This document shows positions 42,597 through 59,897 of a stretch of 64,000 nucleotides of DNA, in pieces. The notes beneath the pieces are model-generated. The model had not been told where the DNA came from and searched no databases. It saw only the letters and a list, made by a program, of their open reading frames with translations. This DNA comes from Candidatus Deferrimicrobiaceae bacterium (GTDB lineage: Bacteria > Desulfobacterota > Deferrimicrobia > Deferrimicrobiales > Deferrimicrobiaceae). The stretch is taken from contig DASXVV010000009.1 in NCBI GenBank assembly GCA_036504035.1, positions 434,001 to 498,000 on the forward strand, in the 5' to 3' direction. The position numbers and the translations under genes are program-made. Position 1 is the first letter of the stretch, and each line of letters starts with the position of its first letter.

Positions 42597-45500
42597 CTAG
42601 CGGCCCTCGGGCACGCTTTCCGCGATCACCAAGCCCCGCAGCTCCTCCGCTCCGTCGTATCCCGGCGACACGAAGTCTAGTCGGTCCAGCAGGTCGATCG
42701 CGCGATCGCCCTTCCCCTGCTTCCAGAGGATTCCCGCCGCCGTGAACAGCATGTTCGGGTCGGAGGGGTGCATATCGAGATGACGGCCGAGCGCCGTCTC
42801 GGCCCGCCCGAGATCTCCGGATTCGACGCTCGCGCGCACGAGCTGGTCCAGCGCCGTGCTGTTTTCCGGGTCGATCTCGAGGGATCGCGTGAACAGGTCG
42901 AACGCCTCGCCCAGGCGCCCTTCCGAGACGCGGACCATCCCGAGGCCGCAGACCGCGGCGGCATCGTCCCGGTTCGCGGCGATGGCCTCCGAAAAAAGGA
43001 GGCCGGCACGGGCGGCGTCCCCGGCCATCAGTGCCAGCACGCCGAGACCCGTCATGCACCGGGATTCGCCGGGACAGGCCCGTCGGCCTTCCTCGTACAC
43101 GTCACGCGCCTCGTCCATCCTTCCAAGGGCGGCCAGGCAGTCTCCGATGTCCGGCAGCACCGACGCATCGCCCGCCTTCATCAGCCCCAGGAGCGTGACC
43201 AGTGCATCGCCCGGTTTCCCGTCCCGTTTCGACTTCAGAGCCGCTTCCCGGGCGGGGTACTTGCCGGAAGCCGCGCGTGCGGCCCCCGCCGCGGCGTCTT
43301 CCGCCGCCATTTGCCTGACGGCTCGGAGCGCGTCCGTCGACAGCAGCTCCAGCCGCGTGGCCTGCGGATCGTAGAGCCGGAGCACTGCAGGATCGGCCAG
43401 GAAGCTTTGCCCTTTCTCGATGCCGTCGTACTGGACGTGCCAGCCGGCCGAACGCTCGGCCGCATTGAACCGGCCTTTCCGCTCCCGGAACACTTTCCGC
43501 TCCCCGTGCTGCTGGCTGCGGACCGGGTAGTGGCGGAGAATGAATTTCACGGGGAAAACCTTGCGCCCTTCGAACGCGATGTCGTGCCCCCCGCTCTCGA
43601 CGATCCGGACCGGGGCGGCGGTTTTCTTCCAGGCCTTGATCTGACGCGTGTTGAACGACTCCGCGCGCTCGTAATACCGCAGCGCGTCCCGGACATCGGT
43701 GCCGGGAACGAACCGGTCGTCGGTCGGGCGGAAATTGAACAGCTCGAAGTCGATCGCGTTGCAGCCGAGGCGATCGACGTAGCGGATCGCCTCCGAAAGC
43801 GACAGCCCCTCCCAGGGAGATTCCCGGAATTCGTCGGCGTCGTGGTGGATGAACCAGTCGGCTTCCAGCGATGCCGCAAGCTGCTCCTTCCGGCGGAGGA
43901 TGTGGCTCCATATGTATTCGCGCCGGTTCTCCTCGGGAAAGCCGGCGTCGCCCGGGAATTTCTCGATGTGCAGCAGCCCCCGGCCGAGCCACTTCGACGC
44001 CTTTTCGACCGTGTCGTCGGTCGACACGTGGTCGATAAGGTAGACTCCCACGCCTTGCCCGACCAGGTACCCGATGACGGGATCGATGATGTCGCCCTCG
44101 TTGTGGGCCGACAAGATCGCGACGACCCGGAAGCTGTTTCCTTTTTCCAATGGTTCCTCCCGCAAGCTGGATTCGTTCGAAGCATCTCCGGCGGACAGCG
44201 CCGAGGAAAGCCGGCGGCCGATCTCATCCATTGCCATCGAGACGCCTTCCGGCATCGCGAAGTCCCTTCCGGTCTTTCCGGTCCGGACGAGCAGGTCCCA
44301 CTGCGCGGTTACCGCGCCCCAGGAAAAGCAGGCGCGCCAGTGGCCGTTTCCCGCGGCTCCAAGCTCCCGGCAGAGGCCGGGTTGCGCAGCGAGCGCCTCG
44401 ATGACCGTCGGGAAGAGCGGCAGCGAAGCGATGACGCCACCCGCAAACTCGGAGGCGGCGCCGCATTCCGGCGTGGCGAGCCAAGGCGTCCCGTGGCTCA
44501 TCGCCTCGATGAGCGTGACCGGGGACACCTCCCCCTTCGAGGGGAGCAGGAGGAGGTCGGCCGCCTTCATCGCCGACGCCGCCTCAGCCCGAGGGAGCCC
44601 CGGCAGCAGCGTCACCCGGGGATCGGAAGCCACGGCTTGGAGCACCTCGTCCACGAACGCGCGCTCCGGAGTCGGGTGCCCCACCAGGAATAGTCGCCAG
44701 TCGCCCGGCATCGATCTCAACGTTTTCAGCAACCCGGCCTGGTTCTTCACCGGCCACAGGTTGCCCACATGGACCATGAGGAACGTATCGCTCGGCACGT
44801 CGTACCGGTTCCGGAAATCCTGCATCCTCGACTCGGGCGTCGTCGCATTGGGCAGGTAGACCGTCCGGATACCTTCCTCGGCAAATAACCTGCAAGGAAT
44901 TCCGCCCCGGGACAGCGATACCACCGCATCGGCCCGCCGGAGGAGATCGGCGAGGCGGCGGCGGAATTCCGCGTTGTCCCGCCACGTGCCGTACCCCTCT
45001 TCGTTGATGAGCGGCTGGATGATGATGCGCGTCTTTTTCGGGACACGCGTCCCTTCGAGTCCCCAAAGCACCCACGTCGTCGGATCGCCGAGCAGGATGC
45101 AGCCGTCGTACCCGCCCTCCTCGATCAGGCGGGACAGCCCCTCCGTCGCGGTCCAGCGCTGCTTGTCGGCATCGAAGGTTCGCGGGAGCGACAGGATGCG
45201 CATCCCGCGCAGCGTGTCGCTCGTCCGATTCGGAAGCGCGCCGGTGGCCACGTCGACGGAATGCCCGAGCCCGACGAGGTGCGCGCCGAGATCTTCCGCG
45301 ATCACCTCGAGCCCGCCGACCATGGGCCAGAAGTAGTCGCAGGCGATCAGAAGGCGCAGGCCCGCCCGGTCCGCACCCTCGGGGGGTAGCGGGGCCCCCA
45401 CCCCGTCGAGGATCTTCCGGGCGGACGAAACCGTTTCCGCGCCGTAGAGCTGCGGGTGGAGGACGACCATCTGCGCGAGAAGCCGTGGCCTCCGGTCGTT

Positions 45501-48401
45501 GTCCTCGAGCAGCCGCCCGCCGCCGTGCTTCCGGTACAGGAACAGCGGCTCGGGAACGAGCTGCCCTTTCCAGCCCTTGAGGCTCGCGTCGAGCCAGAAG
45601 TGCCAATCCTCGTACCCCACGTCGCTTCGGTAGCCGCCGACCTTTTCCCACAGCCGTTTCCGGAAGAGGGCGCAATACGGAAGGACGTTGTCGCCCGCCA
45701 GCACGTTCGTGTCGAAGGCGCCGCTCGGGTAGACGTCGTCCCGGTCGCCGAAGTGGCGAATGTGCGTATATGCCACTCCGATCTCGGGGTGGGCATCCAG
45801 CACGGCCACCGTCTTCCCGAGATAATCGGGCGCGATCCGGTCGTCCGCGTCCAGCGGGAGAATGTATTCGCCGCGCGCCACGCCGATTCCCCGGTTCCGC
45901 GCGCGTGCCGGGTGCCCCGAATTGGGCTGCTCGACCAGGCGGATCGACCGGTCTGGATTCTCCGCGATCAGCTCCCGGGCGACCGTCCGGCTCTCGTCGG
46001 TGCTCCCGTCGTCGACGATGACGATCTCCCACGACCGGTATGCCTGGGCGACGACGCTCTCGACGGCGCTGCGCAGGAAGCGGGCGTAGTTGTAGCAGGG
46101 GATGACGACGGAGACGCGGGGAATCCCGGCGGGTTCCCCGGTCGCGCACGACGCCCGGTCGGCGCGAGCCATGATCGCCTCCCGAAAAACGCCTTCGTAC
46201 CCTTCCGCGGTCCGTTTCCAGGAGAAGCGCTCCGGCATAGAGCGGGCGGCGGCTCGGCCGGCTTTCTCGACCCAAGCCGGCGCCGAGAGGAGGGCATCGA
46301 GCGCGTGCGCCAGCGTCTCCTCATCGTTCGGCCGGTAGACGACGCCGGTCTCCCCGTCGATCACGGTCTCGGGGGCGCCACCGACGTCGGCGACGAGCGG
46401 GACGCACCCGCACGCCTGCGCCTCCAGGGAGACGAGGCTGAACGACTCGAACCGGGACGGGATCACGCAGATCGACGCGCGGGAATATTCCTCGGCGAGC
46501 GTCTCGGGAGATAGGATCCCGGTGAATTCGATTCGGGGGCACGCCGCCAGGATCGCCTCCCGATTTAAATATTCGGATGCACCCCACAGCGCAGCACCGC
46601 CGCACAGTCGAAGGGTCGCGAGAGGATGCCGGTCGGCCAGTCGGAGAAACGCACGGATCAGCAGGTCCGGGTTCTTGTCGGGAACGAGGGCGCCGACGAA
46701 CAGGATGCGGCCGGGATCGCGGGGAATCTCGCGGGGGAAGAAAACCGTCTCGTCCACCCCGTTGTGGACCGTCCGCAGCTTGGCCGCGGGAACGCCGGCT
46801 TCGCGCAGGTTGTCGCGGACCGCCTCCGATACGCACACGACCCGGTCCGCCTCTTGCGCGAGCAGCGCACGCGCATCGGTTCCCGTCAGGAAGCCGATCT
46901 TCTGGTGGTGGAAGAGGACGACGCGGGCCGTCCGGGGAGGGACGTGCCGGTAGCTGCCGAGGTCGGGACCGGAGCAGAACGCGAGGATGTCGCACTCCTC
47001 GGAAAACTCGGGATAATCGCCGCGCGCCCAGGCGTCGTAAGGGAGATAGGCCACCCCGTCCCGATCGATCCGGCCCGAGCCGCCGGTGGCGCCGGCGATC
47101 GACACGCGGTGCCCGCGCACAGCCATGGCCCTGGCGGAGGCGCGGACCGCAGACTCGAGCCCTCCGCAGCTTCCCTCGGGGGGAATCGGCCCCGAGCTGG
47201 CGACGAACGTGACCGACAGCCGGTCGCTCCCCGGGGTGGTCGCAGGATCGTGGAAGGCACCTTCCTTCGCGCGGCCGCCGGCCGGCCGGGAAAGCGCTTT
47301 TTGCGCGGGCAGGAAGGGAAGCGGATACCAGAGGTGATCCTCCGTGATGCTTCCCCCCGCCAGGACCGTCTCCTGCAAGCGGTCGATCTTGCCGGTGACG
47401 AGGGCGTGCTTCCGGGCATGCGCCAGGAAAGTGTGCGCGCTGTCCGGCGCGCCTTTCAGGCAGGCCGCGACGGCCAGGCCGTACAGCGCCTCGACGCAGG
47501 CGGAATCCTCCTCGAGCGCCCAGGAGAAGCATTCGATTGCGAGGGGAAGATCCGTCTCTGCCCGCCCGCCCCACCAGGGAGGATAGTAGGCCAGCGCGCG
47601 CATTCCGAGGTCGGCGAGGCACGCTGCCCCCATCCGCGCCGAATCGATCGGGAGGACACCCCCGTAGATCGAGAGGACCGCTTCCTTCGAACGATATCGT
47701 TCGGAAAGGATCTTGTTCTCGCCGGCCATGACGTTATCCCGGGAGGAGATGGCGCCGGCATGCTCCAGGTAAAGTCCCAACGTTTCCGGCAAGTGGAACG
47801 CCTTCAGTCCCGCCCGGGCGAACTTCAGGTTGAAGTCGAAATCGCCGGCCGCCTTCAGGGAGCCGTCGAATAGTCCGATCGTCTCGTGGACCGAGCTCCG
47901 CCAGACCGACTGGGGGCCGAACTGGTAGTGAAGCAGGGATGCCGGCGGAAAGTAATCCGGGTAGAGAAAGAGCCTGGTTCCCGGATTCTGCTCGAAGGTC
48001 TCGTTCGGGATTTCGGATACGAGGCAATCGCCATAGACGAGGTCGAGGTCCGGCCTGTTTTCGAGAATATCGGCCAGCTTTTCGAGCGCATCGGGCCGAT
48101 GCCGGTCGTCCGAGTTCGCATTGGAAAGATACCGGCCCGAAGCCAGGCCGATCGCCCGGTTCCACGCGGCATACAGCGTCTCCCGCTCGGTCCGGACATA
48201 GGTGATGTTCGCGTGACGTTCCTGCGCCTCCCGGACGATCCGCGCCTCGTCCTGCTCGGAGCCGCTGTCGACGATGACGATCTCCATCAGCCCTTTCCTG
48301 AAAAGGGTTTGCCGGGTCAGGTCCTCGATGCAGCCGATGATGAATTTCTCCGAGTTGTAGAGGGAGACGAGCGCCGAGAGGAGAAAACGGTGTCCGGCCA
48401 A
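42597..48401 (-). CDS. Giant five-module glycosyltransferase with TPR tail
   Basis: A 1,934-residue cytosolic protein with five catalytic modules in one chain. GT2 spans 1-240 (VDSGSEQ, NSDD). GT4 spans 395-740 (FVGALVPDKNPDLL, E-x7-E in FESFSLVSLE). GT2 spans 760-990 (VDDGSTDES, DADD). GT4 spans 1015-1370 (HVGNLWPVKN, E-x7-E in GEVSPVTLIE). A GT92/GT2-like module spans 1425-1660 (IDHVSTDDT, HHDADEF). TPR-like repeats lie at about 285-335 and 1720-1920. All five keep recognisable catalytic motifs. The TTG start at 48401 follows AAAGGA; it overlaps nothing and begins 3 bases after the previous gene. Last of four giant genes; probably assembles a glycan. Substrate unknown. Confidence 0.88.
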   Translation of the reverse strand: MAGHRFLLSALVSLYNSEKFIIGCIEDLTRQTLFRKGLMEIVIVDSGSEQDEARIVREAQERHANITYVRTERETLYAAWNRAIGLASGRYLSNANSDDRHRPDALEKLADILENRPDLDLVYGDCLVSEIPNETFEQNPGTRLFLYPDYFPPASLLHYQFGPQSVWRSSVHETIGLFDGSLKAAGDFDFNLKFARAGLKAFHLPETLGLYLEHAGAISSRDNVMAGENKILSERYRSKEAVLSIYGGVLPIDSARMGAACLADLGMRALAYYPPWWGGRAETDLPLAIECFSWALEEDSACVEALYGLAVAACLKGAPDSAHTFLAHARKHALVTGKIDRLQETVLAGGSITEDHLWYPLPFLPAQKALSRPAGGRAKEGAFHDPATTPGSDRLSVTFVASSGPIPPEGSCGGLESAVRASARAMAVRGHRVSIAGATGGSGRIDRDGVAYLPYDAWARGDYPEFSEECDILAFCSGPDLGSYRHVPPRTARVVLFHHQKIGFLTGTDARALLAQEADRVVCVSEAVRDNLREAGVPAAKLRTVHNGVDETVFFPREIPRDPGRILFVGALVPDKNPDLLIRAFLRLADRHPLATLRLCGGAALWGASEYLNREAILAACPRIEFTGILSPETLAEEYSRASICVIPSRFESFSLVSLEAQACGCVPLVADVGGAPETVIDGETGVVYRPNDEETLAHALDALLSAPAWVEKAGRAAARSMPERFSWKRTAEGYEGVFREAIMARADRASCATGEPAGIPRVSVVIPCYNYARFLRSAVESVVAQAYRSWEIVIVDDGSTDESRTVARELIAENPDRSIRLVEQPNSGHPARARNRGIGVARGEYILPLDADDRIAPDYLGKTVAVLDAHPEIGVAYTHIRHFGDRDDVYPSGAFDTNVLAGDNVLPYCALFRKRLWEKVGGYRSDVGYEDWHFWLDASLKGWKGQLVPEPLFLYRKHGGGRLLEDNDRRPRLLAQMVVLHPQLYGAETVSSARKILDGVGAPLPPEGADRAGLRLLIACDYFWPMVGGLEVIAEDLGAHLVGLGHSVDVATGALPNRTSDTLRGMRILSLPRTFDADKQRWTATEGLSRLIEEGGYDGCILLGDPTTWVLWGLEGTRVPKKTRIIIQPLINEEGYGTWRDNAEFRRRLADLLRRADAVVSLSRGGIPCRLFAEEGIRTVYLPNATTPESRMQDFRNRYDVPSDTFLMVHVGNLWPVKNQAGLLKTLRSMPGDWRLFLVGHPTPERAFVDEVLQAVASDPRVTLLPGLPRAEAASAMKAADLLLLPSKGEVSPVTLIEAMSHGTPWLATPECGAASEFAGGVIASLPLFPTVIEALAAQPGLCRELGAAGNGHWRACFSWGAVTAQWDLLVRTGKTGRDFAMPEGVSMAMDEIGRRLSSALSAGDASNESSLREEPLEKGNSFRVVAILSAHNEGDIIDPVIGYLVGQGVGVYLIDHVSTDDTVEKASKWLGRGLLHIEKFPGDAGFPEENRREYIWSHILRRKEQLAASLEADWFIHHDADEFRESPWEGLSLSEAIRYVDRLGCNAIDFELFNFRPTDDRFVPGTDVRDALRYYERAESFNTRQIKAWKKTAAPVRIVESGGHDIAFEGRKVFPVKFILRHYPVRSQQHGERKVFRERKGRFNAAERSAGWHVQYDGIEKGQSFLADPAVLRLYDPQATRLELLSTDALRAVRQMAAEDAAAGAARAASGKYPAREAALKSKRDGKPGDALVTLLGLMKAGDASVLPDIGDCLAALGRMDEARDVYEEGRRACPGESRCMTGLGVLALMAGDAARAGLLFSEAIAANRDDAAAVCGLGMVRVSEGRLGEAFDLFTRSLEIDPENSTALDQLVRASVESGDLGRAETALGRHLDMHPSDPNMLFTAAGILWKQGKGDRAIDLLDRLDFVSPGYDGAEELRGLVIAESVPEGR

Positions 48402-48403
48402 GA

Positions 48404-51400
48404 TCAGGTCCTTTCCTTTTTACCGAAGCAGGCCCAGTGCCACCGGCCATGCCCCGGAATCGTCACGCTTTCGATGGCATGGCGGAAGAGCCCGGTGTCC
48501 CGGATAAGCTCCTCTATCTCCGCCACGCTCCAACGGACCGAAGGCTCATACTTCCTGAGGTCCGCGTCGTGTGTCCCGTAATCGAGATCCGCGAACTGGC
48601 AGACGAAGAGTCCCCGGTCCGACAGTTTGCGTCCGAGGCCGGCGACGTAATCCTTCACGAGGTCCCGCGTGAGATGCTGGAACACGATGACGCTGAACGC
48701 GAAATCGATTCCGTCCGGGATCGCCTGCTTCCATTCGTCGGCCAGGACCGGCACGAAATTGCGGACATCGTGTTCCGACAGGAACTTCTCCGCTTTCCGC
48801 AGGATTCCGGGCGTGACGTCGATGCCATAGACGCGCTTGACCCGGGGGGCGATGGCCAGGGTATCCCGGCCGTATCCGCAACCGATGACCACGGCGGTCA
48901 TCTCCCGGTCGAGATCGAGGAAAGGCGAGATCATCAGGTCCTCTCCGCCCGTTTCGACCAGCCCTCCGTAGCACGCGTGCCTCTCGAAATAATCGTCGTC
49001 CTGGATCGACTTCCAGTATTCCAGGTTGGACCGGATCGGCGCGGGAGATGCTTCCTGCGATGCATCGGAGCGATACCGGATCGGCGAGGGGGCCGGGAGA
49101 AGCGTCTTGTCCTTCGCGTGGATGAAAAGCTCCTGCTCGAATTCGAGCACGATCCCGGCCTCCTCGTGATACTTCTCGAGGTATTGCGCCGTCTTTTGTC
49201 CGGGGTGCTGGCGATAGCTCCCGAGAAGAGCATCGGCCGTGTGCAGTTGCGCGTGCCTGAAAAAACGCGTCCACAATTCGAGATCGCCGGCGTACTGCAT
49301 GTCTCCCCGCAGGAAGCCGCCTGCCTCCTCCCACAGGGATCTACGCCAGAACGTCCCTTCCTGCTGGATGTAGGGATCGCGATATTGTTTCGCCAGGTAT
49401 TTCCCCCGGCTCCAGGCGGGCAGGTGATCGTAGACCCAGGCCTGCCGCCCCTCCGCGTCGATCCCGTTCGGCCTGCCCATCAGCCAGCGCACCTCGGGGT
49501 GCTCGAGAAACGCAAGCGCCACGAACGCGAAGGCCCCCGGGCAGAGCCGGTCGTCGGAGTTGATCCAGGTCATGATCTCGCCGGTCGCCCGCTGGAGCCC
49601 CTCGTTGATCGCCCGGTACTGACCGCCGTCCTGAAGGCTTTGCCAGTGCGCCAGAAAAGCTCCATAACGCCGGATGATGTCGACGGAGCCGTCGGTGCTC
49701 CCGCCGTCCATGACGATGTACTCGAGGTTCGGATAGCGCTGGCCGAGGACGGACTCCAGCGTCTCCGCCAGGAAGGGGGCCTGGTTGAACGACGGGCTCA
49801 CCACTGAGATCCGTGGATAGCGCGCGTCAAGCGCGACACGAAACCGCTTGTAGTGCTCCCAGCGCATCGACGGGTCGCGCGGAGCCCCCTCGGCCCCCTT
49901 TCTCCAGAAGAGGTTGCATGAGGAGGGCATGCCGTCGTCGTATTTCCATTCCACGGCAGGGGGCTTCCAGTAGTCTTCGAAGAACCTTCGGGAGATCACG
50001 TAGCGTTCCGGGTCCCGGGCCATCTCCTCGAGCGTGGTTCCCGGTGGATCCGCCATGCAGTTGGCGGCCATGAATTCCATGAACTCGTGCCCCCAGTTCC
50101 GGCCGCTCGAAAGCATGATGTCGAAGCAGTGCAGCGAGAATCCGCCGGGCTTGAGCACCCGGTCGATGTCGATGCAGATGTTTTTGTAAAGCTCCCGGTT
50201 CGCCTCGAGACCCGACGGGACATGCTCGAGCGTGGAAATGCTGAACACGAAATCGAAATATTCCTCGGGAAGCTCCGCGTTGAAATTCCCGATGTAGTCG
50301 GACACCAGCCGATAGCCGGAGGCTTCGACCGTCCGCGGGCCGTTGCCGACCCCCTCGAGCTTGTCGAGGTTCCAGCACTCGTACGCGTCCTTGAAATGGC
50401 GGAGGATGCGCGAGTTCCCGCCGCCGATGTCGAGGATCCTGGAACCCGGGGGGACATGCTCCTTGATGAAGGAGAACACCAGCAGATCCTGGTAGGCCTT
50501 CAGGTCGCAGTAGTCGGGATCGACCCGTTCTCCGAACAGCGCCAGGTCGGCCCCCCCGAAGCGGTCGAAGTGGCGCTGTTTCGCGTAATGGTAATCCCGG
50601 AATCCGCCGGGTTCCAGCCCGGCAGGAATGGCGTCCCGCAATGGGTGCGCGATCAATGCGGGCGCGACGGCGTCGAGCGCTGGATTATCGGAAGGAATCG
50701 TCCGGTCCCGTTCGATCGCCCGTTCGCACTCCGCCAGGTAATCGCCAACGAGCGCCTGCGAGCGCTGTCCCGCCCCGTACATCCGGAACCCGGCAATCCT
50801 CGCATCGACCGTGTGGAGGGGGGCGTGTCGCGTGAACCGGAGCCACAGCTCGTAGTCGCCGGCCTGCTTCCATGCGATGTCGAGGGCTCCCCCCGCCTTC
50901 TCCCATAGCCATCGGCGCCAGTAGGTCGCCTCCTGCATGACGAACAGGTGACGCCGCACGGTCGCCGGGTCGAGAAGGAGGGACCTGCTCCAGACCTGGG
51001 TCTCGAACCCGTATCCGCGAAGATTCCCCTCCGCGTCGAACCCCTCCCGCCGCCCGGTGAGAAAGGCGATGTCCGGACGGGCGGAAAAAACGTCCGCCAG
51101 GACCGACAGACCGCCGGGATGGTACTTGTCGTCCGAGTTCAGCCATCCCATGATTTCACCGCTGCTCCGCCGGAATCCTTCGTTCAGCGCCGCATAATGC
51201 CCACCGTCGGGACAGCTCTGCCAGTAGGCCAGGTGCCTGGCGTATTTCCTGATGATGTCGACCGAGCCGTCGGTGCTCCCGCCATCCATGATGATGTATT
51301 CGAGATTCGGGTAGCCCTGGCTCAGGATCGAGTCGATGCATTCCTCGAGGTATCCGGCCTGGTTGAAGGAGGGCGTGACGATCGAGATCCGCGGAAGCGT

Positions 51401-52702
51401 CCCCGCAGGCGAAGACCTCCGTACGGACCCGCCCGGTTGACGCCCCGGTTTATCGCCTTCCGGCTCGGCATAGATCGTCAGGTAGGCGGCGGCTTGAATC
51501 TCCGGAGCGCAGAAACGTTCCGCCTGCCTCCGGCAGGAGGCCGCCATCGCGCGCCCCTCGTTGCCCGAAAGCGTATCGAGAATCGCCCTCGCAAGGCAGG
51601 GGGCGTCTCCGGCGGTCGCCAGAAAGCCGGTCTCCCCCGGGACGACAAGGTCGGGAATGCCGCCGACCGCAAAACCGGCGACGGGAACGCCGCACGCCAG
51701 CGCCTCGGCCATCGTGTTCGGGAGGTTGTCCTCGAGCGAGGGCAGGACAAACGCATCCGCGAGGTTGTACACCTTGGCCAGCGCTTCCTCGTCCCCGATC
51801 GTCCCGAAGGCCATCTTTCCGAACCCCTCGGGGATATCTCCCTCGGGCAACGGGCCGAAGGAAGCGAGGACGATCCCTTCCCGCGCGGGCCGGGGAAAGC
51901 GGGAAAGGGCTTCGAGAAGGAGGGAATAACCTTTCCGGTGCGCAATATAGTCCGCCCCGAACAGGAGCACCTTGGCCCCTTTTGGAATTCCCGCTTCCCG
52001 GCGGGCCGCCGGGGACGGCAACGGGCGAAACACGTCGAGAGGCAAACCGTTCGGGACGACCGAAACCGGAAAGTTCCCCAGGAGGGCGCTCTTCCGCGCA
52101 CAATCCGCCAGCCACCGACTGGGGGTCACGACATGGATGTCGAGATTCCGGTACCCTGCGGCTTTCGCCTCGAACACACGGCGGGAGAGATCCTGATCCC
52201 GATCCGACCCGAGCTGCGGGCAACAGCCGCATGACGTGCGATATCGCTCGCAGCCGCCCGAGTAATGGCACCCGCCGGTGAACGGGTTCATATCGTGCAA
52301 CGTCCAGATGACCTTTTTCCCCGTTAGCTCCTGCCCCGCCCGCGCGTAGTCCAGCGTTCCCGCAACCCAGTGGAGGTTGACGATGCCCGCATCGCGGATC
52401 GCCGCCACCCGATCCAGCCGGACGCCGGTTTGCGCATCGCTGAACAGCTCGAGGCCGGACGGCCGCGAGGGATAGGCGGACAACGCCTCCCCCCAGGTGC
52501 GATACATTTCCTCCCAACGCCCGTCCGGGAGCACGGGGGATACGGCTTCCGGAAGGAGCCGGACGCCTGGGTCCTCCGACTTCCGGCAGGCGACCAGCAT
52601 CTCCGAATCGGCTCCCGCTGACCGGAGCGCGGCATTGAGCCGGGCGGCCGCCTTCCCGGCGCCCCCGAAGTCCATGGTGGAAAGGTGGACGATCTTCGTC
52701 AT
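48404..52702 (-). CDS. Four-part glycosyltransferase/methyltransferase fusion protein
   Basis: The start at 52702 (ATGA overlap) gives 1,432 residues. GT4 spans 1-415 (LSTMDFGGAGKAAARL, LEDNLPNTMAEALACG). GT2 spans 437-690 (MDGGSTDGS, NSDD). Methyltransferase 1 spans 750-870 (ILDIGGGNSRILRHF, STLEHVPSGL). GT2 spans 963-1200 (MDGGSTDGS, NSDD). Methyltransferase 2 spans 1265-1425 (VVIGCGYGRDTLAI). The two GT2 modules are strikingly alike, as if duplicated. A longer reading to 52849 has no conserved sequence and overlaps the preceding gene. It probably extends and methylates a sugar chain. Confidence 0.88.
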   Translation of the reverse strand: MTKIVHLSTMDFGGAGKAAARLNAALRSAGADSEMLVACRKSEDPGVRLLPEAVSPVLPDGRWEEMYRTWGEALSAYPSRPSGLELFSDAQTGVRLDRVAAIRDAGIVNLHWVAGTLDYARAGQELTGKKVIWTLHDMNPFTGGCHYSGGCERYRTSCGCCPQLGSDRDQDLSRRVFEAKAAGYRNLDIHVVTPSRWLADCARKSALLGNFPVSVVPNGLPLDVFRPLPSPAARREAGIPKGAKVLLFGADYIAHRKGYSLLLEALSRFPRPAREGIVLASFGPLPEGDIPEGFGKMAFGTIGDEEALAKVYNLADAFVLPSLEDNLPNTMAEALACGVPVAGFAVGGIPDLVVPGETGFLATAGDAPCLARAILDTLSGNEGRAMAASCRRQAERFCAPEIQAAAYLTIYAEPEGDKPGRQPGGSVRRSSPAGTLPRISIVTPSFNQAGYLEECIDSILSQGYPNLEYIIMDGGSTDGSVDIIRKYARHLAYWQSCPDGGHYAALNEGFRRSSGEIMGWLNSDDKYHPGGLSVLADVFSARPDIAFLTGRREGFDAEGNLRGYGFETQVWSRSLLLDPATVRRHLFVMQEATYWRRWLWEKAGGALDIAWKQAGDYELWLRFTRHAPLHTVDARIAGFRMYGAGQRSQALVGDYLAECERAIERDRTIPSDNPALDAVAPALIAHPLRDAIPAGLEPGGFRDYHYAKQRHFDRFGGADLALFGERVDPDYCDLKAYQDLLVFSFIKEHVPPGSRILDIGGGNSRILRHFKDAYECWNLDKLEGVGNGPRTVEASGYRLVSDYIGNFNAELPEEYFDFVFSISTLEHVPSGLEANRELYKNICIDIDRVLKPGGFSLHCFDIMLSSGRNWGHEFMEFMAANCMADPPGTTLEEMARDPERYVISRRFFEDYWKPPAVEWKYDDGMPSSCNLFWRKGAEGAPRDPSMRWEHYKRFRVALDARYPRISVVSPSFNQAPFLAETLESVLGQRYPNLEYIVMDGGSTDGSVDIIRRYGAFLAHWQSLQDGGQYRAINEGLQRATGEIMTWINSDDRLCPGAFAFVALAFLEHPEVRWLMGRPNGIDAEGRQAWVYDHLPAWSRGKYLAKQYRDPYIQQEGTFWRRSLWEEAGGFLRGDMQYAGDLELWTRFFRHAQLHTADALLGSYRQHPGQKTAQYLEKYHEEAGIVLEFEQELFIHAKDKTLLPAPSPIRYRSDASQEASPAPIRSNLEYWKSIQDDDYFERHACYGGLVETGGEDLMISPFLDLDREMTAVVIGCGYGRDTLAIAPRVKRVYGIDVTPGILRKAEKFLSEHDVRNFVPVLADEWKQAIPDGIDFAFSVIVFQHLTRDLVKDYVAGLGRKLSDRGLFVCQFADLDYGTHDADLRKYEPSVRWSVAEIEELIRDTGLFRHAIESVTIPGHGRWHWACFGKKERT

Positions 52703-55700
52703 CGCCGAGGTTTCCGGTAGGCCCGTACCGTGGAGTACACGCCGGGGATGATCGGGAGATGGGCCTGCGTCTGGGTCGGATCCGCCGGGCATAGCAGCGG
52801 CAGGTCGATCGGTTTCAAACCGTATTGTTGTTCCATGACTTCCACGCACGCGCGCCGGATTCCGGGCTCGGTTCCACCGTGATGAAAGAAGATGGCTTCC
52901 CGATTTTCGTCATCGAGAGGAGGAAGGAAGTCGTGGAAAAGAAGGAGCCCGTCCGCTGCGAGCAGCGGGTAATAGTCGAGAATGTCCCGCCTGACCCCTT
53001 CGTAGCCGTGGTCGCCATCGATAAAGATAAACTCGGGGAAGTTGCCGTCCTGCTCGAAAAGCTTCCGAAGCTCCGGAGCGGCGTCGAAGGAAAAGCAGGG
53101 GAGGTGCGTCACCTCGGACCCGATTTTCCGGAGCACTTCGGCAAGTTGCGGCCGCCCGCCCGGCTCCACACAAAAGCCCTGGAGCCCCTGCGAAACGCGC
53201 TTGAGTGCCTTGTAGGCCAGGAGCAGCGAGCCGCCCGCATACGACCCCACCTCCACGAAGCGCAAGGGATACGACTTCCTCGGCAACAGTTCGGTGGCGG
53301 CGTAATAAAGCTGGAATCGCTCGTTCCTGGACATTTGCCCTTCGATTCCCTTCGGGATCGGATCGTCCTCCAGGAAACGATGGACCAGCGTTTTCTGCAA
53401 CACCGGGTTCACTTCGAAGCTGTTCGGTTTCACGAGCCAGATTCCCGTATCGTCGATGGGGTTGACCTCGAAAGTGTAGCCGCGGGCCGCTTCGAATTCG
53501 TGGAACGCCTTGCGGCACCCTTCCCAATATCCGTAGTCGTCAACCTGGAGCAACCCGCCGTCGACGATGCGATCATACAGGTTCGCCAGGATCGCCCGCG
53601 TCGATTCGTACCAGTCGCCGTCAAGGTGGAGCAGGGCAATCATTCCCACGCGGTCCCGAAATACAGGAAGCGTTTCCTCGAAGAAACCCTTGACGGTCCG
53701 GACAACGTCGCCTGCGCCCACCCGGGCGCAGACCTCCCGAACGCTCTCCTCCGGGGCGGAACAGGTGCCGGTTCCCCAACCGGTCTGGTCGGCGTCGACT
53801 CCGCCGTGCCGATCTTCCTCCGTGGGACTCGGCATCCCTGAAAAGGAATCGAACGAATAAAGGAAGCGCGGGATCCTGGAGTAGCGCTTGATGACATAGG
53901 CCAGCAGCGCGGAAGAGCCTCCGGCGGCGACACCGCACTCCACGAAGTTGCCCGGCAGATTCTTCTCGCAAACTTCCTTGGCCATGCGGAACAGGTTCCA
54001 TAGACGCTCGACGCTCAACATCGTGTATGGGCGGATCACCCCGAGCAGTTCCCGGAACTCGCCTTCCCCCGCAATCGGTGAAACCGCCTCGGGGTGGCTT
54101 TTGAGCAGGGAGTCCAGATCGCCCTTCGCATCGAGGTTGTCGGGAAAATGGCGCAGCTCTTCGAGCAGCGCGTCGCGCGCCTCCCCCGTCCGGTTCATCC
54201 GGGTGAAGACGATGGCCCGGAGCTGGTCGAGACCCATGACCGGCTGGCGCAACGACTTGGCATGGATAAGGAGATCGAACGCCTTTGCGAGGTCGCCCTC
54301 CTCGATCGATTCGATCGCGTCCTGCATCATCCGGATCACGGGCAGGACGGCGGGTTCCGGCGCGGACGACCGCGCTTCCAGATGCTTCCGAACGATGGCG
54401 TCAAGGACCGCTGCGCGTGCCTCGATGCCGTATTCCCGAAGGCATCGTTCCTGCCCGCGACGCGCGATCGCCTCGCGCTCCTCCGGGTGGGCGAGGTAAT
54501 AGCGAATTTTCTCGACGAGCTCCTTTCCGTCGCGGAACGTCTCGACCTCGACCCCCGGGGTGAAATAGGCGGAAAGGTTGTCGAAGTGTTCCGTCAGCAG
54601 GAAGACCCCTGCACCCGTCGCCTCGAAAATGCGCATGTTCGCAGTTTCCCGCCGGGCGAGATCGACCGTATTGCCGGAATTGTCGCGCGTTTCGAGGATG
54701 CCCCGGGCATCGATGACGATCTTCCCGGACCGCAGCGCCTGATGCATCGATACGCCGAATCGTCCTCCCAGGTTGAAGCGTGCGACATCCGGAGTGATGG
54801 TCTCGACCTGCCCGCTCAGGTAATAGCCGAGAGTGAAAGGCTTCCGCGGATCCGACGCAGCTTTCGCCACTTCCTGCAGGTAACGGTTCCGACCCGGATG
54901 CTGGTCGAGCGTCCACATGCCGCTGAATACAACGTCGAATTCGGGGCGTGAACCGGATATTTTCCCGTTGACCCACCCGGGGTATCCCGGAAAAAAGTGC
55001 TCGGCGGCCCGGGCCCCGATCTTCAGCGCCGTCTCCCGCAGTGCGGCGAGACTGGAAAGCATGACGTCGAACCCGGTCCAGTCGGTATCGGCAGGAATGT
55101 TGGCCGCCCGCCAACCGAGCACCAGAGAAGGCTTCCACGAAAGCGTCCGAAGGAAACGTCCATCGAACGTGATGGGGTCGGAAAGATAGAGCACGTCCGG
55201 CCTCAGCGTGTCGATCTGGTGCCGGACCACGTCGTGCACCCAGTCTTGCATGTCGGCGAGCGTGATCCGGTTCTCGTTGAGCCACTGCTGCTGAGACCAC
55301 GGATTGTTTGCCACGATCAGTTCTGCGTCATACCCCAGATTGCCCATATAGGGCGCGAACATGTGGATCCCGCTGAAGCCGTCGGCGACCAACCGATCCA
55401 TCTGCACCCGAAACGAGGCCTGGGCCAGATGCGGCTCGGATTCGTATAGCGCCTTGAGGTATTCGAGATAGAAGGTGTGGATCTGGAGAAACCTGAGGTT
55501 CGCCCCCCCGAGGGCCGGCGTCGCCGAAGGCGGAGGGGTTGCGGCGACGCCATCGGGCGTGTCGCCAAGCGCCAGGAGCGCCTCGGCGAGGTTCGCCGCT
55601 GCGGCCCGATTCCCGGGTTCGAACGCACACGCCTCGGACAGCGCCTCCTTCGCCTCGGCGTATCTTTCCCGCCGGTAGAGGATGGCTCCAAGCAGGTTCA

Positions 55701-56781
55701 GGACGTCGGCGCTCTTCCCGAACCGCTCGAGCATGAGGCGGCAGATCCGCTCGGAGTCATCGACGCGTTCCCCCTCGAAGAGCCACTCGGCCAGATCGAG
55801 GAGCGACTCGGACGACTTCCGGGGGCTTGCGAGCCAGGCGTCGATCCGCGCGGCGGCCGCTTCCGCGGAGACGGGTGCCGCCGCTTCGGCGTCGGCCCGG
55901 GCCGGTTCCGGCGCGGCTGCTGGAACGAAGATGGATGTCGGCCGCCCGAAGCGCCGGACCTCGTAGGCGAATTCCCCCTCCCACAGGAACATCGTGTTGA
56001 CGACGGGCGCCTTGAGGTAGATCAGCGCCGAGAACGCCTTCTCGCGGTCGGTCTGCGGGGCGCCGTGCATCAGCTGGAGGATGTCGCACTGGAACGCCTC
56101 GACCTCGTCCTGGGTATACGGCGTGAAGATCAGCCTCCCGTCGAAAGACGCGACGTCCCATGCGTGGTTGGAGATCTGTGCGCTGTCGAGGAAGATGTCC
56201 TTCCCTTTCGTGGGCGTTTCGATGTAGCCGCGACGGGCTACCCGCATCAGCTCACGACACGCTTTTCCGGGATCGGAGGCGTGCTCCAGCACGTGGGAGC
56301 AGTAGACGAAGTCGAATTCCTTGTCGGCAAAGGGGATGTCTTCCACGCCGAACTCGTAGACCGGCTTCCCATCGACGTGCTTGAAAGGCGCCCCGGCCCG
56401 GCCGAATGCGTGGTCTTTCAGCGTCACGTCGGAGAGGTGCGTGGCGAGCGGAAAGGGAATGTGGCCGCTGCCGACGTCGAGGACCTTGTCGCCCGGGAGG
56501 ATCCCGAAGTCGAAGGTCCGGGCCTGATACAGGTGGTAGCGGTCCCGTTGGGGTAGTTCCTTGTAACGGTCGTAAAGCTCCGCGAGGACGGAAACCGACC
56601 GGGGAGGAAAAGATGCCGCAAGCTGTTCGTACAGGTCGAACGCTTCGAGGAATGCACCTTCACGGAACTTCTGCTTCGCTAGAGAAAGGCCCGAAACCAG
56701 ATCGGGATTCGCCATGCGGTATTTCGTGCGTCGACCGAAAGGGGAGCTGCCCATGCCGGTTCCTTTTTCCTGGTGTGACAT
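52699..56781 (-). CDS. Methyltransferase/CgeB-like glycosyltransferase/TylF-like fusion protein
   Basis: The start at 56781 has AGAGG just upstream and gives 1,360 residues. A TPR-like helix leads. Methyltransferase 1 spans about 85-260 (VLDVGSGHIPFPLA, SHVLEHASDPGKA). TPR repeats span 315-405. A CgeB-like glycosyltransferase spans 425-800 (FDVVFSGMWTLDQHPGRNRY, FEATGAGVFLLTEHFDNL). A TPR-like linker follows. A TylF/macrocin O-methyltransferase-like domain spans 920-1115 (FVECGVAAGGSSALLAYVIK, LHLDGDWYESTRAIL, DDYGYWEGCRKA). A last methyltransferase spans 1170-1300 (FVEVGSYAGGSLLLAY, FIFIDGDHGYEG). It follows the radical-SAM gene by 8 bases. Confidence 0.87.
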   Translation of the reverse strand: MSHQEKGTGMGSSPFGRRTKYRMANPDLVSGLSLAKQKFREGAFLEAFDLYEQLAASFPPRSVSVLAELYDRYKELPQRDRYHLYQARTFDFGILPGDKVLDVGSGHIPFPLATHLSDVTLKDHAFGRAGAPFKHVDGKPVYEFGVEDIPFADKEFDFVYCSHVLEHASDPGKACRELMRVARRGYIETPTKGKDIFLDSAQISNHAWDVASFDGRLIFTPYTQDEVEAFQCDILQLMHGAPQTDREKAFSALIYLKAPVVNTMFLWEGEFAYEVRRFGRPTSIFVPAAAPEPARADAEAAAPVSAEAAAARIDAWLASPRKSSESLLDLAEWLFEGERVDDSERICRLMLERFGKSADVLNLLGAILYRRERYAEAKEALSEACAFEPGNRAAAANLAEALLALGDTPDGVAATPPPSATPALGGANLRFLQIHTFYLEYLKALYESEPHLAQASFRVQMDRLVADGFSGIHMFAPYMGNLGYDAELIVANNPWSQQQWLNENRITLADMQDWVHDVVRHQIDTLRPDVLYLSDPITFDGRFLRTLSWKPSLVLGWRAANIPADTDWTGFDVMLSSLAALRETALKIGARAAEHFFPGYPGWVNGKISGSRPEFDVVFSGMWTLDQHPGRNRYLQEVAKAASDPRKPFTLGYYLSGQVETITPDVARFNLGGRFGVSMHQALRSGKIVIDARGILETRDNSGNTVDLARRETANMRIFEATGAGVFLLTEHFDNLSAYFTPGVEVETFRDGKELVEKIRYYLAHPEEREAIARRGQERCLREYGIEARAAVLDAIVRKHLEARSSAPEPAVLPVIRMMQDAIESIEEGDLAKAFDLLIHAKSLRQPVMGLDQLRAIVFTRMNRTGEARDALLEELRHFPDNLDAKGDLDSLLKSHPEAVSPIAGEGEFRELLGVIRPYTMLSVERLWNLFRMAKEVCEKNLPGNFVECGVAAGGSSALLAYVIKRYSRIPRFLYSFDSFSGMPSPTEEDRHGGVDADQTGWGTGTCSAPEESVREVCARVGAGDVVRTVKGFFEETLPVFRDRVGMIALLHLDGDWYESTRAILANLYDRIVDGGLLQVDDYGYWEGCRKAFHEFEAARGYTFEVNPIDDTGIWLVKPNSFEVNPVLQKTLVHRFLEDDPIPKGIEGQMSRNERFQLYYAATELLPRKSYPLRFVEVGSYAGGSLLLAYKALKRVSQGLQGFCVEPGGRPQLAEVLRKIGSEVTHLPCFSFDAAPELRKLFEQDGNFPEFIFIDGDHGYEGVRRDILDYYPLLAADGLLLFHDFLPPLDDENREAIFFHHGGTEPGIRRACVEVMEQQYGLKPIDLPLLCPADPTQTQAHLPIIPGVYSTVRAYRKPRR

Positions 56782-56789
56782 CTTGACCT

Positions 56790-59700
56790 CTAGCTCAGGC
56801 AGACCAGCCGCGCTTCGGGCAGCAGCCGCTGCAACAAGGCGTCGGCGGTGAATTTGACCCCCCAGTTGGGGATCGCGTAAGGGCAATAGCCCGAACCGAT
56901 CGGCCATGCCCCCGGCAACCCCCCGAGACGGTTTGCGTCATCCGGTGCGGTCATGTACTGCATCCGCTTGAGGTCGTCGATCAGCAACTCCGAGGCGTGG
57001 GCATGGGGGGATGATTCGTCCCGCCGGGCGCCACCGCGGAGGAACCACGCCAGCTGGGCATTCCCAGTGACGCACGACCACGCATCGGCCGAGCGCCAGT
57101 CCCTGTCGAAGGTTGCGGGCATCGTGACGAAACGCGATTTCCCCGCGGCCCGTTTCGCGTCGAGGTAGAAGCCGGCGATCCCGTCCGCCGCGTTCCGGAG
57201 CAACGTCCCGATCCGGTCATGATCGACGTCGGCATTGCCTAGCCGGAGGATTTCCTGGAGCCCGACCAACACGTAACCGATCAGGTGGGTCCACGGCTTC
57301 CCGGGCTCGGAAAGGCTGTTGGCGTCGACCCAGCCGTTGTCCCGCGACTGCGACAGGACCCATCGGACCGCGCGCTCCGCAGATATCCGATATCGGTCGT
57401 CGCCCGTCACCGCAAACAGTTCGAGAAGCGCCCAGGCCACGCGGCTCTTGTACGCGCGCGGTCCCTTGTAGGTGGAGCGGGTCCACTTGCCGTCGGGATC
57501 CTGGCAGGCGACGATCCAGTCGGCGGCGCGAAGCGCAGCGGTCAGGTATCGATCGTCCTGCGTCTCTTTGTATAGGGCGATCCATCCGAGCAGGACCTGT
57601 CCGGTATTGAAAACCCGCGGGCGCAGGCCGTAGACGCCCACCGGCTCGCCCGCACCGCCCTCGGGAGACTGGATCGCAACCTCCCAGTCGCCCATCGCGA
57701 TCGCCCGCTTGAGGGCTTCGGCGCTGCCGGTCAGGTGATGGAAAGCGAGAAACGTCGGGATGATGTAGCCGGTGGTTTCGGGATAATCGACATCCCAGTG
57801 AAGGCTGTCCATGGAATAGACCGCCGAAACGCCGCCGCGCCCGTTGGCGTCCTGGGCGAGAGAAAGCCACCGGATGCAGGCGTCGAGATGCTCGCGATCG
57901 CCCAGGGCCTGCCCCGGTTCGCAGCCGAGCCGTTCGAGCGCTTTCCGCCGGGAAGGTAGCGGAGCCGTCTTGGCGGCATTCCCGGTGCGCTGTTGCTCGA
58001 GCGCCTCCGCCAACGCCTCGGACACTTCCTGATCGCCGGGTCTTGCCTGAAGGAACGCGGAAAGCAACGCGACCAGATCGTCGATCCGGCCCGCGTCGAG
58101 CAGGATGCCGGCGCACCTGGCCATCGATTCGCGATCTCCGGGGTCGATCGACAGCGCATTGAGAAGCTGTTGCCAGCCGCGTTCCGCATCGTCGCCGGCA
58201 AGGTAGCTTTCCGCCAGCCGCCGGGCAACGGCGGCCGCGTCATCGGATCCGGCCGTGCGTGCGCCCAGGGGCAGGTTGCCGCGGATCTCGCGGAGCAGCG
58301 ACTCCGTCTCCGATAGCATGCCGGGGAGCAAGGGGGTTCCCTTGACCGCCTCGAGATAGAACATCTGCTCGGGGCGGTTGTCGATCGACTCGATGCCCGG
58401 GATCCGGCTTTCGAGGTACGACTTCTTCTCGATCCGCGCAAAACCGGCCTTCCGGAAGAGCACGGCCAGCGCGGGAAAATCGTAGACGTATTTGCAGTGG
58501 TTGTCGCCGGCCCGAAAGCCGTAGAAAAATTCGTTGAACTTGTCGGCGACGGTTTCGCCGGGGAAGCGGTCCCTCCCGTCGGGAAGCTTCTCGAAATAGA
58601 AGCCGCGGTCTTCGGACAGGTATCGCTCGGCGAGGACGTGCAGGTCCTGCGTCCCGAAGCGGGCGACGCCCCCGGGCCTGAGCACCCGGAACACGTCGTC
58701 GACGATCCGCTGCCCGCGCTCCCGCGTAAAATAGTTGATCGACGACATGCAGACGAGCGTGTCGACCTGCCCGTCATCGAACGGGAGAAGCTCCTTTTCC
58801 AGGTCCAGCACGACCTCGGAACCCGGGAACGCATCGATGTTGACGTAGCCATCCAGCCGGTAAGATCCGCTGCAAAGGTTGACCTTGATCGGGGGATTGC
58901 CGGGCACGGGGGCGTCGAGGAAGTAGCTCATGCAGTTCTCGACGCAGAAAGCGGGCGCATTCCCTGAAAGGACCGCCTCGCGAAAGCGCAGGTAGGCCGG
59001 GCTGTTCCAGATCTCCATCACGTCTTGCTCGAAGAGGTTGCCGAATCGGGTCCCTTTCCCGTAGTCGTGGCAGCAGGCGACCACCGACCCGTCGAGCAGC
59101 ATCGTGAAAACGTTGCGGGCGTTTCCGCAATCGCGCATCGCGTTCCGAAGCGAGGGAAAGTCAGGGTAGCGGGGGCGCGTAAATTCGGGCAAGCCGGAAC
59201 AGGCGAAATCCGAATCGCTCCGCCGGATGTACGGCGCCTTGAAGAACGGCGCGAGGCCCAACCCTTCACAGGTGCGGGCGAAGGCGTCCATTTCATGCCG
59301 GTTGTGGCGAAACACGATGAACTGCGGGTGCAGGCGAACCTTCCCTCCGTGCCTCTCGTTGGATGCGGCCAGCATCTCGAGCGCGCCCAGCGCTTTGCGG
59401 ACATCGCCACCGACACGATAGCGCTCGTAGATTTCCTGCGATACGCCGTCGATGGAGACAAGAATCTCGGAGACGCCCGAACGGATCAGGTCGTCCGCCA
59501 TCGTCGGCGTCATCGTCTGGCCGTTGGTGCTGATGTTGGTGGGAACGAAGGCCGAGGCGTAGCGCGTCATCTCGAGGATGGCCGGGTTCAGCATCGGCTC
59601 GCCCCACAGATGCAGGTACAAGAATTCCGCATAGGGCCGGATCTTGTCCGCGACGATCTTGAATCGCTCGAAGGAGAGGAACCCCTTCTTCCGGTCGATC

Positions 59701-59897
59701 ATCCCGCCGCCGATGGCGCATTCCGGGCACTTCAGGTTGCACGCGAGAGAGGTTTCGAGGGCGAAGATCGCGGGCTTCAAGGGATCAAACCGATCGTTGG
59801 TCGATGCGATGTCCTTTCCTCCTCCCGCCTGCCATTCATGTGCCCCCCGGTTGACCTCTAATGTCCGCCCCTTTGGCAAATACAAGATCCGTGCCAC
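56790..59897 (-). CDS. Radical-SAM/methyltransferase/TPR/alpha-toroid fusion protein
   Basis: First of the four giant genes. Numbering from the frame's first GTG (59897): radical-SAM core at about 45-340 with C53, C57, C60 (CNLKCPEC) and a SPASM-like cysteine set (CCHDYGKG, CVENC); methyltransferase at 345-520 (SSINYFTRERGQRIVDDVFR, VLRPGGVARFG); TPR at 560-650; an alpha/alpha-toroid-like domain at 680-1030 (ETTGYIIPTFLAFHHLTG). The GTG at 59897 lies inside the sigma-54 promoter, so the true start is further in. GGAGGAGG at about 59816-59825 points to a start near 59810, though only ATC is there in frame; TTG at 59780 is another choice. Confidence 0.82.
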   Translation of the reverse strand: MARILYLPKGRTLEVNRGAHEWQAGGGKDIASTNDRFDPLKPAIFALETSLACNLKCPECAIGGGMIDRKKGFLSFERFKIVADKIRPYAEFLYLHLWGEPMLNPAILEMTRYASAFVPTNISTNGQTMTPTMADDLIRSGVSEILVSIDGVSQEIYERYRVGGDVRKALGALEMLAASNERHGGKVRLHPQFIVFRHNRHEMDAFARTCEGLGLAPFFKAPYIRRSDSDFACSGLPEFTRPRYPDFPSLRNAMRDCGNARNVFTMLLDGSVVACCHDYGKGTRFGNLFEQDVMEIWNSPAYLRFREAVLSGNAPAFCVENCMSYFLDAPVPGNPPIKVNLCSGSYRLDGYVNIDAFPGSEVVLDLEKELLPFDDGQVDTLVCMSSINYFTRERGQRIVDDVFRVLRPGGVARFGTQDLHVLAERYLSEDRGFYFEKLPDGRDRFPGETVADKFNEFFYGFRAGDNHCKYVYDFPALAVLFRKAGFARIEKKSYLESRIPGIESIDNRPEQMFYLEAVKGTPLLPGMLSETESLLREIRGNLPLGARTAGSDDAAAVARRLAESYLAGDDAERGWQQLLNALSIDPGDRESMARCAGILLDAGRIDDLVALLSAFLQARPGDQEVSEALAEALEQQRTGNAAKTAPLPSRRKALERLGCEPGQALGDREHLDACIRWLSLAQDANGRGGVSAVYSMDSLHWDVDYPETTGYIIPTFLAFHHLTGSAEALKRAIAMGDWEVAIQSPEGGAGEPVGVYGLRPRVFNTGQVLLGWIALYKETQDDRYLTAALRAADWIVACQDPDGKWTRSTYKGPRAYKSRVAWALLELFAVTGDDRYRISAERAVRWVLSQSRDNGWVDANSLSEPGKPWTHLIGYVLVGLQEILRLGNADVDHDRIGTLLRNAADGIAGFYLDAKRAAGKSRFVTMPATFDRDWRSADAWSCVTGNAQLAWFLRGGARRDESSPHAHASELLIDDLKRMQYMTAPDDANRLGGLPGAWPIGSGYCPYAIPNWGVKFTADALLQRLLPEARLVCLS
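59881..59896 (-). promoter_or_regulatory. Sigma-54 promoter of the giant glycosylation operon
   Basis: The minus strand reads TGGCACGGATCTTGTA, matching TGGCACG-N4-TTGCW at all but one base (GT for GC at -12). The expected start lies near 59870. It overlaps the first codons of the widest reading of the radical-SAM gene. This links the modification genes to the flagellar sigma-54 regulon. Confidence 0.8.

Follow-up and report, generated by a model that had tools for sequence, protein, structure and literature searches.

The window analysed in this study (the whole stretch of 64,000 nucleotides, C9:434001-498000 of a 3.17-Mb genome) carries four tightly packed giant genes on the minus strand at 42597-59897 which, judged from their sequences and surroundings, probably constitute a flagellin glycosylation island making a complex methylated glycan on the filament. 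This interpretation was favoured because the genes border the flagellar cluster, because their orthologues in Ignavibacteriae IGN16 run into flagellin genes, and because module-swapped orthologues occupy the same site in a congener, G002. In addition, a hydropathy scan of all four giant proteins gave no clear membrane segment, which matches cytoplasmic glycosylation.

Architecture of the operon

The open reading frame calls and translations bore out the four adjacent genes that an earlier note on this DNA had described. Counted from their most plausible starts, they comprise 1,035 (gene 4), 1,360 (gene 3), 1,432 (gene 2) and 1,934 codons (gene 1), the last three sizes being those of the note and the first replacing its estimate of about 1,000. 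From gene 4 to gene 1 the intergenic spacings are +8, -4 and +2 bases; the note had given +1 for the last. The start of gene 4, the first gene of the operon, is a weak GTG that no clear Shine-Dalgarno sequence precedes.

Pfam searches reproduced the note's module list: nine glycosyltransferase (GT) modules (five GT2-type, one of them assigned by a weak Glyco_tranf_2_4/GT92-like match only, three GT4 and one CgeB-like, PF13524), six methyltransferase (MT) modules, one radical S-adenosylmethionine (SAM) module with SPASM, one alpha/alpha-toroid-like module, and tetratricopeptide repeats (TPRs). The four genes thus hold 17 catalytic modules in total. Inspection of the translations located the catalytic motifs SDD/DAD in the GT2 modules, CxxxCxxC in the radical SAM module, G-rich SAM motifs, and HLDGD in the TylF domain, while none of the listed NCBIfam models reached its cut-off for the four proteins. 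Orthologues of 43-70% identity with an identical module order in other families and phyla exclude chance as the source of this arrangement. All features of the operon lie on the minus strand, as follows (aa, amino acids).

42597..48401, minus: gene 1 (P0001), 1,934 aa, GT2 - GT4 - GT2 - GT4 - GT2/GT92-like - TPR (Pfam)
47412..48401, minus: gene 1 GT2 module a (PF00535; 78% in G002)
46167..47231, minus: gene 1 GT4 module a (PF00534/PF13439; 80% in G002)
45342..46136, minus: gene 1 GT2 module b (PF00535; 49% only in G002)
44217..45335, minus: gene 1 GT4 module b, a second PF00534 stretch that the G002 orthologue lacks (alignment gap after residue 998)
43242..44126, minus: gene 1 GT2-like (Glyco_tranf_2_4/GT92-like) module (PF13704; 85% in G002)
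42600..43241, minus: gene 1 C-terminal TPR segment (PF13432/PF14559; 65-69% in G002)
48404..52702, minus: gene 2 (P0002), 1,432 aa, ATG at 52702, GT4 - GT2 - MT - GT2 - MT (Pfam)
51446..52702, minus: gene 2 GT4 module, part of the mobile 4-3-2 cassette described below (43-49% in IGN16, Desulfonema, Geobacter UBA4057 and STC_69)
50645..51409, minus: gene 2 GT2 module a (Pfam)
49850..50644, minus: gene 2 methyltransferase module a (PF13489; 81% in G002)
49055..49834, minus: gene 2 GT2 module b (PF00535; 82% in G002)
48407..49054, minus: gene 2 methyltransferase module b (PF08241; 86% in G002)
52699..56781, minus: gene 3 (P0003), 1,360 aa, ATG at 56781, MT1 - TPR - CgeB-like GT - TPR-like - TylF-type MT - MT24 (Pfam)
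55873..56781, minus: gene 3 MT1 methyltransferase, its most widely conserved part (PF08241; 39-68% in many loci)
55528..55860, minus: gene 3 TPR segment directly ahead of the GT-B glycosyltransferase (PF13428/PF07719; helical repeats in the AlphaFold2 model)
54328..55527, minus: gene 3 CgeB-like GT-B glycosyltransferase module (PF13524; orthologues 44-61%)
53413..54072, minus: gene 3 TylF/macrocin-type O-methyltransferase module (PF05711, E 3e-43)
52702..53412, minus: gene 3 Methyltransf_24 module (PF13578)
56790..59897, minus: gene 4 (P0004), up to 1,035 aa, radical SAM/SPASM - MT - TPR - alpha/alpha toroid (Pfam; orthologues 43-64% per main module)
58908..59774, minus: gene 4 radical SAM/SPASM module, CxxxCxxC at aa 53 and further SPASM cysteines (PF04055, PF13186)
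58323..58901, minus: gene 4 methyltransferase module, pairing with the toroid (57-64% in cassettes; a separate gene adjoining the toroid gene at loci L092 and L094)
56793..57947, minus: gene 4 alpha/alpha-toroid module with an invariant YPETTGYI motif (AlphaFold2 model, predicted local distance difference test (pLDDT) 84)

Gene 2 contains a duplication, its GT2 modules a and b (49055-51409) sharing 48% amino acid identity and one 148-nucleotide stretch that is 77% identical.

Flagellar setting and exchange of modules in a congener

Within the window, the flagellar genes were read in the order flgI, flgH, flgG, motA/B, flgB-fliF-fliG, flgE, fliM, flhB, flhA, flhF, fliA, a kinase gene and a Methyltransf_24 gene (P0009). 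The names FliC, FliA, kinase and methyltransferase were tested with Pfam, the other flagellar names being a reading of gene starts together with BLAST agreement with relatives. Ahead of the window lie fliC, flaG, fliD, fliS, fliW, csrA, flgL and flgK; this fliC, the only full-score flagellin gene of the genome, is found on the same contig at C9:427730, approximately 5.8-6.7 kb ahead of the window start and about 50 kb from the giant genes. The operon converges on the end of the flagellar cluster, with the stop codon of P0009 only 5 bp from that of gene 1.

39788..40579, plus: fliA (sigma-28 family), close to where the flagellar cluster ends (Pfam sigma-70 regions 2/3/4; order kept in G002)
41765..42592, plus: P0009, a separate Methyltransf_24 gene, last of the flhA-flhF-fliA-kinase run (57.6% guanine plus cytosine (GC); 82% in G002)

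This junction is retained in G002, one contig of which carries flhA-flhF-fliA-kinase-P0009 followed by the C-terminal end of gene 1, which converges on them just as it does in the window. A second contig carries the rest of gene 1 at 69-77% identity without its second GT4 module, and a gene 2 in which the MT-GT2-MT half is 82% identical and the N-terminal half is different. Upstream, where the window has genes 3 and 4, G002 shows by eye a GT4 with a cupin-like tail (the GT4 also recognised by Pfam) together with a DegT-type aminotransferase and a methyltransferase. We infer the continuity of this island, which spans two unjoined contigs. The island thus varies between close relatives, G002 differing in one GT4 module and throughout the upstream half. 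At the cut-off used, neither gene 1 nor gene 2 was matched in the congener G001 or in the family member G012, both of which have fragmented genomes.

Recurrence of the 4-3-2 cassette

Genes 4 and 3 together with the GT4 module of gene 2 were shown to recur as a unit, at 43-70% identity per module, in Geobacter sp. UBA4057 (whose gene 3 orthologue is 62% identical along its length), Desulfonema magnum, Desulfuromonadaceae STC_69 and IGN16. Most of the relatives were retrieved by a single scan that used two MT1 motifs as seeds, and the sample is accordingly biased to the MT1 module. In IGN16, genes 4-3-2 are followed by TPR and GT2-TPR genes and then by FliC-(FliS-like)-FliC-FliD, all in one direction, and both flagellins were also picked up independently by profile. 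A planctomycete encodes a relative of 2,620 aa between flgK-flgL and fliD. These two loci are the strongest flagellar links outside the genus. Looser links were seen in Mailhella, where CgeB and MT1 genes lie about 10 kb from flgI, and in a Syntrophobacteraceae metagenome-assembled genome (MAG), where an MT1-CgeB fusion lies about 22 kb from fliC. The earlier note had proposed a search for the same gene set beside flagellar loci in related genomes; orthologues were found there for genes 1 and 2 in G002 and for genes 4-3-2 in IGN16. A linkage between a Pelotalea relative and that organism's flagellin was not upheld, as the one flagellin-bearing contig examined differs in length from the relative's own. 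In Desulfovibrio sp. Ncb351 most cassette modules are encoded by individual neighbouring genes, an arrangement that speaks for joint action of the modules in their fused form.

Structural predictions for genes 3 and 4

The TPR-CgeB stretch of gene 3 was modelled (pLDDT 77) as helical repeats joined to a GT-B fold, with O-N-acetylglucosamine (O-GlcNAc) transferases as the top PDB matches at a root-mean-square deviation of about 23, the domain orientation being different. Other gene 3 orthologues have no TPR ahead of the glycosyltransferase in the aligned stretch.

The folds nearest to the toroid model were cellobiose/GlcNAc 2-epimerases and unsaturated glucuronyl hydrolases, and the model makes a sugar the likely substrate. 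We dropped the naming of a reaction, given that the Pfam matches were mixed (GH127, squalene-hopene cyclase, GH88, pectate lyase and C5-epimerase) and that the fold fits both 2-epimerases and glucuronyl hydrolases; an AprG-like assignment was likewise set aside, the profile match being weak and spanning 40 residues. The gene 4 orthologue of Geobacter sp. UBA4057 (L032:10478-14968, minus strand) has approximately 500 extra N-terminal residues with no Pfam name, and those of STC_69 and Desulfonema are also longer at the N-terminus.

Accessory genes, promoters and base composition

Two further genes lie outside the operon.

60100..61023, minus: P0007, a separate methyltransferase gene upstream of gene 4 (Pfam; 55.5% GC)
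L003:6406-8223, corresponding to window -11594 to -9777, minus: P0006, a 605-aa CgeB-like glycosyltransferase (PF13524, Pfam) in the fliC operon

P0007 is probably an accessory of the island. A P0006 relative also stands beside fliC in G001 (75%), and several family members have one at 37-54%; in G001 and G010 it is followed by a GT9 protein. The position of P0006 indicates that the genus has a flagellin-operon glycosyltransferase independent of the giant genes. Just past the island, on the other strand (61987-63723), lies a gene of the aldehyde:ferredoxin oxidoreductase family.

The earlier note saw no maf gene here, and no match to the Maf transferase (PF01973) was obtained in the whole genome by a search whose control panel gave positives in archaea only; Maf-based flagellin glycosylation was rejected on this result. 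Sugar-biosynthesis genes, a hallmark of such islands that is not strictly required, were absent among the annotated genes of the island. A near-perfect sigma-28 promoter (11/12) precedes fliC, and a sigma-70 promoter scan for the operon found nothing.

Gene 3 (62.6% GC), P0009 and P0007 have lower GC contents than the sampled flagellar genes (63-71%), while gene 1 stands at 67%. The low values of gene 3 and the flanking methyltransferase genes, set against the congener-conserved gene 1, fit a later arrival of the upstream half, and the GC contents of P0009 and P0007, clearly below those of their neighbours, suggest that these two genes arrived recently.

Proposed function and alternative explanations

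In the favoured interpretation, the operon would encode soluble, cytoplasmic modular enzymes that assemble a complex glycan on flagellin and methylate it ahead of export. The first sugar may be placed onto flagellin by the CgeB-like TPR-GT-B module of gene 3 or by P0006; the GT2 and GT4 modules would lengthen the glycan, the TylF-type and other methyltransferases would cap or decorate its sugars, and the radical SAM and toroid modules might perform a further sugar conversion, such as epimerisation. The proposal of flagellin glycosylation made in the earlier note thus gained from the position at the flagellar-cluster edge, from the fliC-fliS-fliC-fliD genes of IGN16 and from the congener site, and lost from relatives in polysaccharide loci and in genomes without flagellar matches.

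The following observations weigh against a flagellar role. Genes 3 and 4 were not found in the sampled family members, and scans for sigma-28 and sigma-54 promoters upstream of gene 4 gave chance-level scores, after which a flagellar-class promoter was dropped. Desulfonema magnum, whose complete genome gives no match to flagellin or the flagellar rod, carries genes 3 and 4 as well as the GT4 module of gene 2 at 49-67% per module, and a Thiomargarita MAG that likewise has neither match carries gene 3. In Geobacter sp. UBA4057 the cassette is accompanied by a nucleotide-sugar dehydrogenase and a cytidylyltransferase, with no flagellar genes beside it on the 49-kb contig. Furthermore, MT1, MT and toroid occur as three adjacent single genes beside a Wzt-type ABC exporter (L092:4311-6935) and beside a flippase (L094:9896-12401) in two genomes without a flagellar-rod match, one of them a member of the Brennerbacteria (candidate phyla radiation). 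Linkage to capsule or O-antigen loci instead of flagella, which the earlier note had named as evidence against its proposal, was therefore found in part, cassette relatives also occurring in polysaccharide-type loci and in organisms without flagellar matches.

These occurrences, together with a single-gene toroid relative of G046 in a cluster resembling a polysaccharide locus, are what would be expected if the product were a surface polysaccharide, either lipid-linked or free (O-antigen, capsule or exopolysaccharide), and the flagellar neighbourhood of the operon were incidental. We nevertheless consider this unlikely, as the operon is without exporter, flippase, polymerase or initiating transferase (no Wzm/Wzt or Wzx/Wzy gene was found, the operon encodes no transmembrane protein, and the only one nearby is DUF1189), the congener retains the site while exchanging modules, and the IGN16 orthologues run into flagellin genes. 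That another surface protein or several (S-layer protein, pilin or adhesin) might be glycosylated, with flagellin not the main target, appears very improbable: the Desulfonema cassette and the Thiomargarita gene 3, both in genomes without a flagellin match, do need a different acceptor, and TPR segments suit a protein acceptor, but no candidate acceptor gene adjoins the operon, and the flagellar linkage is repeated across separate phyla. A glycosylated small molecule as the product can hardly be credited at all, since nine glycosyltransferase modules and a flagellar context speak against it and no aglycone-building or efflux genes were seen, although TylF-type methyltransferases (here the PF05711 match) and radical SAM/SPASM enzymes also occur in antibiotic pathways and the toroid has a short, weak profile match to AprG.

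Flagellin thus stays the preferred acceptor in this organism. The occurrence of the cassette in genomes without flagellar matches and in polysaccharide loci indicates that its product is probably attachable to different carriers. The cassette is likely to have been a decorating enzyme set for surface polysaccharides that was later fused and recruited to flagella, an origin indicated by the MT1-MT-toroid core relatives that are still separate genes in polysaccharide loci.

The earlier note's suggestion that the fused order may act as an assembly line is weakened by relatives with the same modules as separate genes (L082, L092 and L094). A co-linear glycan synthase, in which the number and order of the fused modules would dictate how many sugars and methyl groups flagellin receives and in which order, seems quite unlikely to us. 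If it were true, recombination that dropped or replaced a module, such as separates this species from G002, would rewrite the glycan of the flagellum in the manner of module exchange in polyketide synthases.

With a congener pair differing by defined modules at one site, the rule connecting module content with glycan structure could be read by mass spectrometry. In addition, a conserved MT-MT-toroid trio of surface-polysaccharide loci in genomes without flagellar matches is now tied to flagella, and the operon points to an uncharacterised radical SAM and toroid step in glycan modification.

Comparison with known systems

FlmG of Caulobacter, a TPR-GT-B enzyme that binds and glycosylates flagellin, has a soluble TPR and GT-B architecture like that predicted for the TPR-CgeB stretch of gene 3; it differs in having 596 residues and in transferring pseudaminic acid (PMC7591256). 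Flagellin islands are known to vary, and methyltransferase domains are frequent in their GT41 enzymes (PMC4875605). Those of Enterobacteriaceae and Geobacillus likewise place variable blocks of glycosyltransferases and methyltransferases at flagellar loci, many GT41 enzymes and one GT2 carrying methyltransferase domains themselves, whereas they consist of separate genes including sugar biosynthesis, and the Enterobacteriaceae site lies between fliC and fliA (PMC4875605, PMC5109656). The present operon, in contrast, gathers its 17 catalytic modules in four genes at the fliA end, includes the radical SAM/SPASM and toroid modules, and has no sugar-nucleotide biosynthesis gene.

The flagellin GT2 of the Clostridium difficile type B system (CDR20291_0242) combines GT2 and Methyltransf_11 in one protein that extends, and was proposed to methylate, the flagellin glycan, but it has one glycosyltransferase and one methyltransferase domain against the five modules of gene 2 (PMC5207246). 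WsaE of Geobacillus stearothermophilus, which acts on the S-layer glycan, is similarly soluble, with one methyltransferase and two glycosyltransferase domains; its chain, however, is exported by Wzm/Wzt and then moved to the S-layer protein, and this operon has no such export genes (PMC2943079). Fused glycosyltransferase-methyltransferase flagellin enzymes are therefore already known, while no report of giant fused ones was found in the literature; what look new here are the scale of the fusions, the radical SAM and toroid parts, and the swapping of modules within one genus.

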